IMG/VR virus record: IMGVR_UViG_3300032308_002010
Coordinates: 1 to 64,000 of that record
Direction: 5' to 3' (one strand)
DNA: 64,000 nucleotides
Source of the DNA: a virus
Shown: in pieces, positions 17,715-22,511 of the stretch
How the letters are laid out: the number at the start of each line of letters is the position of its first letter
Numbering within the stretch: the stretch's first letter is position 1
Translations under genes and position numbers: made by a program
Notes under the pieces: model-generated
Seen by the model: the letters and a program-made list of their open reading frames with translations, nothing else
What the model was told of the DNA's origin: nothing
Databases searched by the model: none

Positions 17715-20700
17715 TTAGTTATTTATTGCGGCGCGGAGGGCGTTGCGTAAGCCGCTGTTAGTGTTGAGTTGATTAATGAACTCGTTTAAAAACGCTGCCG
17801 TTTTCACAAGCTCGGCAGGGTTGATTACAATCGCGCCATTAATTGTTGTGTTTGTGGCTGTAATAGTGCCCGAGCCAATTGTGTTTGGCGTAAATTGAAT
17901 TATACCGCCAGCGGGTATAACTCCTGTCGCGCCGACAGGGCCTGCTGGCCCGGTTGCGCCGGTATTACCGCACGGACCTGTTGCGCCGCTAGGGCCCGTT
18001 GCGCCTGTAATACCGGTGGGGCCTGTTATGCCAGTTGCGCCTGTTATGCCTTGTAACCCAGTTGGACCACGCGGGCCTGTCGGGCCGGCTAAACCGCGTA
18101 AACCGCTAATACCAGTCGCGCCATTCGCGCCGGTAGCGCCCGCAACGCCAGTCGGGCCCGTAACGCCAGTTTGCCCGCGTAAACCTGTTGCGCCTGCAAC
18201 ACCTGTTGCGCCGGTGGGTCCGCTGGGGCCGGTGATACCGGTTGGGCCGAGCGGGCCTGTTTGCCCGCGTACACCAGACGGCCCGGTCGGTCCCGTTTCG
18301 CCGCGCGGGCCCGTCGAACCGCGCTGACCAGCTACACCTGTGGCGCCCGGAAGACCTGTTACGCCGGTTTGACCGCGCGGACCAGTCGCGCCTACTACAC
18401 CAGTTGGACCTGTGGCGCCGGCCATGCCGGTTGGGCCCGACGCGCCAGTTGGACCCGTTTGACCTTTGACGCCTGTGGCGCCGGTCTGACCTGTTGGACC
18501 GGTCGGGCCCGTTTGCCCGCGAGCACCCGACGGGCCAGTTAAACCCGTAACGCCGGTTTGCCCGCGCGGGCCAGACATACCCGTCGAACCCTTTTCGCCT
18601 GTGTCGCCTTTGTCTCCCTTCAGCCCGCGTTGACCTGTTAAACCAATTAGACCCTGCGGGCCTGTAACACCAATAGGTCCGCGCGCGCCGACAGGGCCAG
18701 TTACGCCGGTTACACCGGTGTCGCCTTTGTCGCCTTTCTCGCCCGTGTCGCCTTTGTCGCCTTTCTCGCCCGTGTCGCCTTTATCTCCTTTGCAACCTTG
18801 CGGGCCTGTCGGACCTGTTTCACCAGTGAATCCTCGCGGACCAATAATACTTACACCAGTAGCGCCCACCGGCCCGGTCATGCCGGTCACGCCAGTCATA
18901 CCTTTTTCGCCCTTCTCGCCGCGATTGCCGTCTTGTCCGGGCGCGCCATCACCGCCGGGCGGACCAGCTGGACCCATGAGGCCGGGCATTCCCGGGAAAC
19001 CCTGCAGACCGCGCGGCCCAGTAGCGCCCGGATCTCCCTTGTCGCCCTTATCGCCTTTAGGCCCCTGCGGTCCGGGTACGCCGCCGCCCGCACCACCCGT
19101 CGGGCAGTCTGTAGCGTTTAGATTTATTTCTCCGCTTATTTGGTTGCCTTGAATTTTGAGCTGGCCACTTCCAACTGTTGTGCCGTTTGCTTTAACGCTT
19201 ATATCGCCAGCGGTTAATGCTTCAACTTCCAAACTGCCGTTAATAATGTAGAAACAAATACCAGACGCAGTATTCGATACGACCTCAATTTTTCCGCTTT
19301 TAATTGGCGTATAACTTCCACCGCCGTACGATCCGCCGCCGCCCGACACAGAAAGAGAGCCGCCCTGTATAATTGGACAATCAGTCAGCGCTCTGACAGA
19401 GACGTAAGACGCAATTGAATATGAACATTCATCAAGCTGCGAAATAACAGTTTGAATTTGATTCGGTAGATTTGGTCCAGACGCAACGCCGCCGCCGCCG
19501 CTCGAAATTCGCGTTACGCATGGTTTAGGAATTTGAAGATCGAGAAACAGTTCGATTGCGCACGAGTCGCCAGAACTGGATACGCCGCCCGTAAATGAAC
19601 CGCTCGGGCTTGACGATGCCGAGACTGTTTGCAAATTTAAAACGGCGCTAACAGTCGGGCACGGCGGTCGCGGGATTTTAACGTAAAGATCAAGTGTGAT
19701 ATCAAAGTTACACTGCGGCGGAGAATTTGATCCGCTGTTAATCTGATGGTTTGGTGTAATTTGAAATATGAGATTTGACTCGGGGCAGTCGTACCCGACG
19801 CAAATATTGCTATTTGTTGTGATAACCGGGCATGGCGGCCGCGGGTATGGGATATCTACGTTGATATCAAAAATGTATGTGCACGAACCCGGATCATTGC
19901 ACGACGGCGGACTTTCTATTTTGATAACTTGAAATGACGATGGGCCGCGTGGGCTGGGCGCGTCTGAGTAATGCCCCGAGGCTGTCCCCAGAATGCTGAT
20001 ATCGGGGCACTTCGGGCGCGGAATGGGGACAAGTATTTCCAGCTCGATTTCAAAGTCGCATGTTTCTGGCTGGTCGCAGCCGCTGGCTGGCGTCGTAGTT
20101 TTTGTGATAGAAAATTTTGACGAACCCGATACGCACGACGAGCCGGCAAAGCCGGTTTTTACGTTAAATGATTTAGACGTAAGAGTGATACACGGCGGCG
20201 CAGGAATTGGAACAACAATCTCTAGTTCAATGTCAAAGGAACATTGCTCAGGGTTGTCGCAGTCGCCGGGCGTTGTCGTCGGCGTAATCTCAAATCTATT
20301 TTGCTTACCAGCAACGCAAGAAGAGTCTGAATAGCCGCTGTTAACCTCAAACGTTTTAACGTTTATTTCGGGACACGGCGGCTGCGGTATTGGTATGACC
20401 AGATTGAGATTAAAATCGAAATCGCACGTGTCGGGCGTGTTGCAAGTGCCGGGAGTTGTAGTTGATGTAATTTCAAATGTAGATTCCTCAGCCAATGAAC
20501 ATGTCTGAGTTAGTAGCACTGTTTTTACGGACAGTGTCGGCGCGTTTAATGTCGGGCATGGCGTCCGCGGGATTGGTATGGCGATCTCTAGATTGAAATC
20601 AAACTCACACGTGTCCGGCGTGTTGCAGTCGCCCGGTGTAACTTTTGTCGTGATCTCAAACAAATTCTCGCCAATACAACTCTCGCCGCCGTCACTAAAA

Positions 20701-22511
20701 CCACTCGTGACTTTGAGGGTTGGCGAATTCAATATCGGGCAGCGCGGTTTTGGAATCGGGATCAAGATTTCCAGATTGAAATCAAACTCACATCTATCTG
20801 GCGTGTTGCAGTCGCCGGGTGTGATTGTCGTGATGATCTCAAACTTGTTTTCACCGGTAAGGCAGCCCTCGCCGTCATAACCACTCGTGACTTTGAGCGT
20901 AGGAGAATTAAGTATCGGGCACGGCGGTTTTGGAATCGGGATCAGGATCTCTAGATTGAAATCAAACTCACATCTATCTGGTGTGTCACAGCTACCCGGC
21001 GTGATTGTCGTGATGATTTCAAATTTGTTTTCACCGGTAAGGCAGCCCTCGCCGTCATAACCGCTGGTGACTTTAAACGTTGGCGAGTTTAGTATCGGGC
21101 ATGGCGGCTTCGGAATCGGAATGAGTATTTCCAGATTGAAGTCGTATTCGCACGTATCTAATGTGTTACAGTCGCCGGGCGTGACTGTCGTGATGATCTC
21201 AAACTTGTTTTCACCGGTAAGGCAGCCCGCCCCGTCATACCCGCTAGTGACTTTAAACGTTGGCGGATTTAGGGTTGGGCATACCGGACGAGGGATTGGA
21301 ATGAAAATTTCCAGATTGAAATCAAACTCACACGTGTCAGGTGTATTGCAATCACCCGGAGTTATTGTCGTGATGATTTCAAACTTATTTTCGCCCGTTA
21401 GGCAGTTGTCTTTGTCATAACCGCTGGTGACTTTAAACGTTGGCGAGTTCAGTATCGGACACGTCGGTTTTGGAATCGGGATTAGGATCTCTAGATTGAA
21501 ATCAAACTCACATGTGTCAGGCGTATTGCAGTCGCCCGGCGTGATTGTGGTAACAACTTCAAACCTGTTTTCGCCCGTAAGGCACCCGTCGCCGTCGTAG
21601 CCGCTGGTGACTTTAAAGACAGGAATATTAATCAGCGGGCACTGCGGTCGTGGGATCGGCACCAGTATTTCAATTTCAACGTCAAAGACGCACTGGTCTG
21701 GCGTGTTGCAGTCGCCCGGGATGTGGGACGTTGTGATACTGGCGTAATTACGCTTGTCTACAAGACAGCCGTCACCCTCGTAGCCGCTGTCGACCGTGAA
21801 CGTTTTAAAGTTGATGAGGGGGCACGGGGTGCGCGGAATCGGCACAGAAATCTCGACGTCAAATTCAAAGCGACACTGATCCGCGGTATCGCAGTCGCCG
21901 GGTGTGATTACCGGGTCGATTACGAACTTGTTTTGCTTGTTTTGCATGCAGGTCGAGTCTGCATACCCGGAGTTCACCGAAAAAGTGCGCGTAACAATTT
22001 CTGGGCACGGAGTGCGCGGGATTGGAATTTTTACGTCTAAATCAATGATGAACTCGCACTCATCTTGCGTTTCGCAATCACCGGGCGTGATGTTGGGTGT
22101 TATACGAATAACGCTGTTTTGCGTTAAACAATCTTGATACCCAATTTCAACGCCAAACTCGCCCGCGGTGAGCGTAGTGCACGGGGCGCGCGGAACCTGC
22201 ACGTTCACGTCGAGTGCGACGTCGTACTTACACGGATCTACGTCGCGCCGATCTATCTTCAGTTCTATTTTTGACTCGGTGCAGCCCCCGTCTTGGCCTG
22301 ACAACGAAACACCTAGTGTCGTGTCTGTTAAAAAAACAGGACATTTGTTGCCTACGTCAGTCGGCGGTTCGCGGGCGATGATCGGCGCTGTGCAGCCGAA
22401 GATCGGCGGCGGCAGCGGCATGATCTCGCACACCGACGAAATAAAATCAAACTCGACTTTTGGTGTCGGTTCAATCGGGCACGACGAGTTTTCAAACAGA
22501 TTCTTCGACAT
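17715..22511 (-). CDS. giant fibre: cysteine-rich repeats plus collagen-like region, 1598 aa
   Basis: A very long probable fibre. Residues about 57-1000 hold some 16 repeats of about 60 aa. Most have four cysteines and read like [35 protein letters not shown], then PIPRPPC. The centre units are almost identical, the outer ones divergent. Residues about 1000-1140 are a glycine- and serine-rich beta region. About 128 Gly-X-Y triplets follow (about 1143-1527), then a tail ([19 protein letters not shown]) like that of the smaller collagen-like protein. The likely role is trimeric receptor-binding or decorating fibre; the repeat family is not recognised. Disulfides would form outside the cell. Confidence 0.85.
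20574..21660 (-). repeat. tandem 180-bp DNA repeats inside the giant fibre gene
   Basis: The sequence GATTGAAATCAAACTCACA or close variants recurs at about 20591, 20774, 20954, 21134 (variant), 21314 and 21494, a spacing of 180-183 bases. Each period encodes one 60-residue Cys-rich unit. High identity between neighbouring units suggests recent duplication or gene conversion, so copy number may vary between strains. Confidence 0.85.

Follow-up and report, generated by a model that had tools for sequence, protein, structure and literature searches.

A four-cysteine repeat fused to collagen in a probable phage tail fibre, and the covariation of cysteines in its neighbouring units

A virus record of 193,815 bases (~194 kb) encodes, within its first 64 kb (the stretch analyzed here, referred to as the window), a protein in which an array of cysteine-rich repeats is followed by a collagen-like segment. 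This raises the question of what kind of protein it is, whether its repeat belongs to a known family, and how its cysteines are paired. The features of the locus are as follows.

17715..22511, minus strand: complete putative fibre protein, 1598 aa, 70 Cys (ORF)
22344..22511, minus strand: N-terminal cap, residues 1–56 (25-sequence alignment)
22179..22343, minus strand: unit 0, residues 57–111, truncated, without the second cysteine (unit profile and alignments)
19659..22178, minus strand: units 1–14, residues 112–951, predicted three-stranded beta modules of 57–61 aa each (unit profile; strands from AlphaFold2)
19518..19658, minus strand: degenerate unit, residues 952–998, two Cys (sequence)
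19074..19517, minus strand: Gly/Ser-rich joint between putative rod and collagen, residues 999–1146, with further cysteines (sequence)
17919..19073, minus strand: collagen-like Gly-X-Y region, residues ~1147–1531, ~129 triplets, interrupted (PF01391 match)
17715..17918, minus strand: C-terminal tip, residues 1532–1598 (67 residues), ending in a helix-like motif (sequence)
16674..17711, minus strand: second, separate collagen-like protein, 345 aa, directly downstream (sequence, PF01391)
22513..30527, minus strand: six ORFs upstream of the fibre ORF, of 337, 259, 577, 534, 313 and 641 aa, in conserved order (locus comparison)

Genomic setting of the repeat protein

Homologues of a large terminase, a baseplate-wedge protein and a tail sheath are encoded in the window, the latter two upstream of the repeat ORF; the virus is therefore a contractile-tailed phage. 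Its terminase shares 22–31% identity with the top-listed annotated phages, for example Salmonella phage Arash and Vibrio phages. The repeat ORF sits within the tail structural module, and its gene order is conserved in related phages. When conservation of the upstream ORFs was scored over 33 other loci, some of them cut by a contig end, the 337-aa ORF immediately upstream and the 259-aa ORF next to it had a homologue in 33/33, and the 577-, 534-, 313- and 641-aa ORFs beyond them had homologues in 32–33 of 33. Because these ORFs are conserved across loci in a myovirus tail module, the repeat ORF, judged by its gene context, very probably encodes a tail-fibre or baseplate-periphery protein.

Cysteine is abundant (2.1–3.8%) in the upstream ORFs of 313, 534, 577 and 337 aa, the first of which carries an invariant CCGC, and five ORFs at window positions 22513–28588 have an N-terminal RxYPF/YPL-like motif and/or a high cysteine content. 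A 1636-aa ORF, which by its length and position is probably the tape measure, contains 0 Cys, whereas neighbouring tail ORFs are cysteine-rich (up to 3.8%). On the other side of the fibre, the first 167 residues of the ORF at 15179–15988 are conserved and are followed by an fn3 domain absent from most relatives; the ORF preceding it (15990–16436) has a Big_1 Ig-like domain.

The repeat unit and its relatives

The repeat region covers residues ~57–998 of the fibre ORF (window 22343–19518, in frame) and is built of ~60-aa, four-cysteine units, with 14 strong copies, one partial copy and further degenerate ones. Searched over the full 194-kb record, a profile built from 14 units matched 15 times, each time within the fibre ORF, with E values of 5.8e-34 to 1.4e-20 for 14 of them and 6e-5 for the partial N-terminal one. 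One or two more degenerate copies were recognized by eye after the profile-matched units (952–998 and beyond), so that an earlier note on this DNA, which had counted about 16 copies at 19515–22340, gave a fair number. That note had also described most copies as having four cysteines, and this is what we found: exactly four occur in twelve units (1–12), the exceptions being unit 0, with C1, C3 and C4 only, unit 13, with three, and unit 14, with four in a changed pattern. C3 and C4 are 17 residues apart in nearly every unit, and because this spacing is held across proteins whose N-terminal parts are only 35–96% identical, the repeat goes beyond chance. The middle units 4–9 are the most alike (74–93%), whereas units near either terminus have positional counterparts in other phages, a pattern that points to local, recent duplication of the middle units within a genome.

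No significant match to the unit was found in Pfam, NCBIfam, PHROGs or PDB sequences, and tblastn found none in annotated phages (with three family members) or in plasmids (with the window protein), which bears out the earlier note's view that the repeat is not a recognized family, a view for which it had proposed a profile search as the check. The N-terminus of the fibre likewise had no significant match in family, PDB and fold searches. Foldseek against PDB and BFVD returned no match at E<=0.001, with a query model whose inter-unit geometry is unreliable (pTM 0.35). Scattered low-E matches, limited to short cysteine or repeat stretches in families with no relation to it, were attributed to chance, the query being repetitive and cysteine-rich; a scan of prokaryote genomes gave one 12-residue match in Pluralibacter, which was judged the same way. 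As far as seen, the repeat family is viral, and no isolated phage is among its members. PHROGs and Pfam matches of the whole fibre protein fall on the collagen part, and no receptor-binding domain was identified in the fibre. The repeat is thus an undescribed family found in an object of a familiar type, a phage tail fibre.

The collagen part, which the earlier note had correctly seen to follow the repeat, matches PF01391 (Collagen triple helix repeat) at 185 bits against a cut-off of 27.2 (E 1.8e-55). The C-terminal quarter of the fibre is in this respect an ordinary member of that family, which covers residues ~1147–1531 and leaves the repeat region unexplained. No 2OG-oxygenase of PF13640, the family that includes prolyl hydroxylases, was found in 11 related records. 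Near the end of the fibre's collagen region lies a conserved cysteine in GPCGN. The 345-aa collagen-like protein shares with the fibre this cysteine and the C-terminal motif TNxxLRxAI[KR]xA, as is also seen in related loci; it might be a partner chain of the fibre, through a shared cap or co-assembly.

In IMG/VR, 34 loci were retrieved by the repeat profile and 3 further contigs by the N-terminus, giving at least 37 contigs; several related records are 197–205 kb long. Collagen is fused to the repeat in 23/34 loci. It is absent from six intact proteins (L023, L024, L026, L029, L033 and L034), and a contig end truncates the five other loci in which it was not seen. What stays constant is therefore the repeat and not the collagen. 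The relative at L034:9479-17566 has 2696 aa with only four clear units and a long Ser-rich tract, and its C-terminal half appears by eye to be fn3-like in place of collagen. In the repeat ORF of L025 (from about L025:9209), long insertions with a YxWxGxxYxE-like motif occupy the B–C loop, a possible site for displaying extra domains.

Predicted fold and cysteine covariation across unit junctions

AlphaFold2, run with 94 three-unit segments as the alignment, predicted three strands per unit (A, 2–14; B, 25–33; C, 42–55) with a mean pLDDT of 77 and placed neighbouring units unreliably (pTM 0.35); the N-terminal model (pLDDT 55) was too poor to use. The proline-rich linker ending in PPC that the earlier note had described is a linker in its last few residues (RPPC), which lead into the next unit, whereas most of it (IPIP) forms the end of the third strand in this model. 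Coevolution ladders fit A–B and B–C strand pairing. Over the 94 sequences the strands are amphipathic, with a strict hydrophobic/polar alternation that gives one greasy face. A single three-stranded sheet cannot bury this face, which suggests that two further chains of a trimer do so; such trimeric closure is in keeping with the presence of collagen. The predicted meander places C1 and C4 together at one end of the unit, opposite C2 and C3, and strand C is flanked by C3 and C4.

The four cysteines differ in their conservation: C3 and C4 are near-invariant, as is better judged from alignments given that the parser used to delimit units takes C4 (and in one analysis also C3) as its anchor, while C1 and C2 are labile. 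Cysteines of the same unit did not covary in a first test, and neighbouring units were therefore tested. C1 of unit n and C2 of unit n+1, written C1(n) and C2(n+1), were both present in 224 cases and both absent in 13, with 2 and 0 discordant (Fisher p 1e-19, a value that overstates the strength, as many C-terminal co-losses are partly one inherited event). The reverse neighbour relation, C2(n)–C1(n+1), gave nothing (p 0.23). In the coevolution analysis C1(n)/C2(n+1) was the strongest inter-unit coupling (z 6.7, against 1.8 for the reversed order and 0.4 for n/n+2). When cysteines were shuffled within proteins, 0/3000 shuffles over all proteins matched the observed pairing, and 44/200,000 did as well when only the window protein, L016 and L023 were used.

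Because related proteins have common ancestors, separate co-loss events were also counted: they occur in the window clade (the C-terminal pair), in L016 (units 10/11), in L023 (units 4/5) and, by eye, in L025, and several of them look independent. L023 has lost C1 (ANF) together with C2 of the next unit (GDF), and its near twin L026 keeps both. Most members have no C2 in unit 0. Where the units are short (L033, L031 and L035), C2 persists in the first unit to lack C1, and the units after it lack both cysteines; this is the pattern predicted by staples between neighbours. Of six recorded mismatches to the rule, four are by eye parser artefacts (fused units or an insert). The two exceptions that remain are L018 and L021, in each of which strand C has an additional cysteine that may replace the missing partner. 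Unit 0 does contain C2 in the clade L017/L018/L020/L021, where the number of N-terminal cysteines is even; it is seven in the window protein and most others, and an odd count would leave one invariant cysteine free to bond another chain or the baseplate.

These patterns bear on how the cysteines are used. Two disulfides inside each unit (e.g., C1–C4 and C2–C3), with units joined only by the peptide and by packing, would suit the four-cysteine composition of most units, the separation of C2 and C3 by only six residues, and the placement of C1 and C4 at the same end of the meander. However, C1 and C2 of one unit are not co-dependent (p 0.31); either is lost alone with C3 and C4 kept, which leaves odd counts and a matching loss in the neighbouring unit; and C4 stays in units without C1, as C3 does in units without C2. 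We consider this arrangement improbable. The earlier note had proposed a rod of disulfide-bonded modules: the covariation does fit disulfides, but it points to bonds between neighbours and not within single modules, so that the note's reading holds in its main lines and is probably mistaken about the position of the bonds.

A metal site, for example for zinc, could be formed at each junction by C1(n), C4(n), C2(n+1) and C3(n+1), exactly the four cysteines predicted to meet there, and fibres assemble in the host cytoplasm, which is reducing. Yet junctions that have lost both C1 and C2 retain C3 and C4, in L033 and L035 over entire series of short units, and a four-ligand site should not survive such a loss; metal binding is thus an unlikely use of these residues. 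Less likely still is a simple spacer, a flexible tether with structural thiols and no fixed disulfides. Variable unit number and loop length and the recently duplicated middle units resemble such arrays, but the near-invariance of C3 and C4, their fixed spacing and the paired loss of C1 and C2 do not.

Proposed architecture and comparison with known fibres

Based on these data, we favour, as on balance probable, a long fibre of the tail or baseplate periphery in an uncultured family of ~200-kb myoviruses, consisting of a cap, a trimeric beta rod of ~15 modules with inter-module disulfides, and a collagen stalk. The cap, which has invariant cysteines at 11, 28 and 40 and ends in the motif C-x-I-x-P-x-P-P-P-I-[FY]-x-C (25-sequence alignment; Cys57 opens unit 0), would attach the fibre to the tail or baseplate. 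Some 15 stacked modules would then form the rod, continued distally, in proteins that have collagen, by a thinner trimeric stalk ending in a small tip. If the strands run along the axis, the rod would measure about 15 x 4 nm and the collagen roughly 110 nm. At each junction, C1 would sit at the top of one unit (n) and bond C2 at the bottom of the following one (n+1). If the top of one unit so meets the bottom of the next, C4(n) would by geometry bond C3(n+1); C3 and C4 hardly vary, so this second pair is placed by geometry alone. Bond formation would have to await release from the reducing host cytoplasm, or be assisted, and the rod would withstand shear, unfolding and proteolysis.

The same fold and fibre could instead carry its staples between the chains of the trimer and not along one chain, a variant that is compatible with our preferred architecture and that we regard as a serious possibility, if short of probable. 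Collagen implies a trimer, and the disulfides tabulated for the Milano short tail fibre are between chains (PMC10811340). In addition, a residual coupling between strands A and C, which scores ~4 where shuffles reach at most 2.1, is hard to fit in one three-stranded sheet. This coupling is, however, ambiguous in orientation, with parallel and antiparallel pairings scoring alike, and covariation reads contacts within a chain and with a neighbouring chain alike. A more specific form of the preferred architecture, which we advance tentatively and hold to be rather doubtful, is a closed beta barrel of three chains, in each of which C1(n)–C2(n+1) and C4(n)–C3(n+1) disulfides lock all junctions, the fibre being zipped only after lysis; this would be a previously unseen architecture, possibly with redox-controlled rigidity.

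A thioredoxin-like protein that has a WCKYC motif and what looks like a signal peptide is encoded at G000:C1:107400-108300 (L050), and thioredoxin profile matches occur in 9/11 related records, with none in the L033 and L035 records. This phage-encoded protein appears, from its sequence, to be exported; a link to the fibre is speculation. The profile of the sulfhydryl oxidase Evr1/Alr had no match in the 11 records, nor in any control.

Among the closest parallels is the Agrobacterium phage Milano, in which tail fibres and sheath are disulfide-linked, the contractile tail being locked, with inter-chain bonds in the fibre beads (PMC10811340). As in the case of its short tail fibre gp31, the protein described here, known from sequence, very probably belongs to a myovirus tail with cysteine-rich peripheral proteins. 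The proposed rod resembles gp31 in that the latter is a trimeric fibre of stacked small bead domains with cysteines 17–18 apart in inter-chain cross-links (PMC10811340). The two have no sequence relation (profile score −2.9 bits), and gp31 has two beads, each a hairpin and a short helix, and no collagen, whereas the fibre here has ~15 units. The layout is also similar to that of the E. coli prophage proteins EPclA/EPclB, in which a tail-fibre collagen triple helix is flanked by trimerising phage-fibre domains (PMC3368898). There the partner domains are PfN, a coiled coil (PCoil) and PfC (PMC3368898); here they are the cysteine-rich beta repeat and a short C-terminal motif, and the fibre has no match to Pfam PF08400/PF06820.

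The repeat thus adds an undescribed family, present in at least 37 metagenomic phage contigs and unnamed in the public family libraries searched, and its covariation yields a bond map that predicts, from sequence alone, which cysteine of a module pairs with which of the next. Inter-module staples, if true, would explain the mechanical and proteolytic robustness of a very long, thin phage fibre outside the cell, and would extend the finding of disulfide-locked tails in Milano to an unrelated phage group. They would also offer protein engineering a modular, genetically encoded, redox-setting rod.
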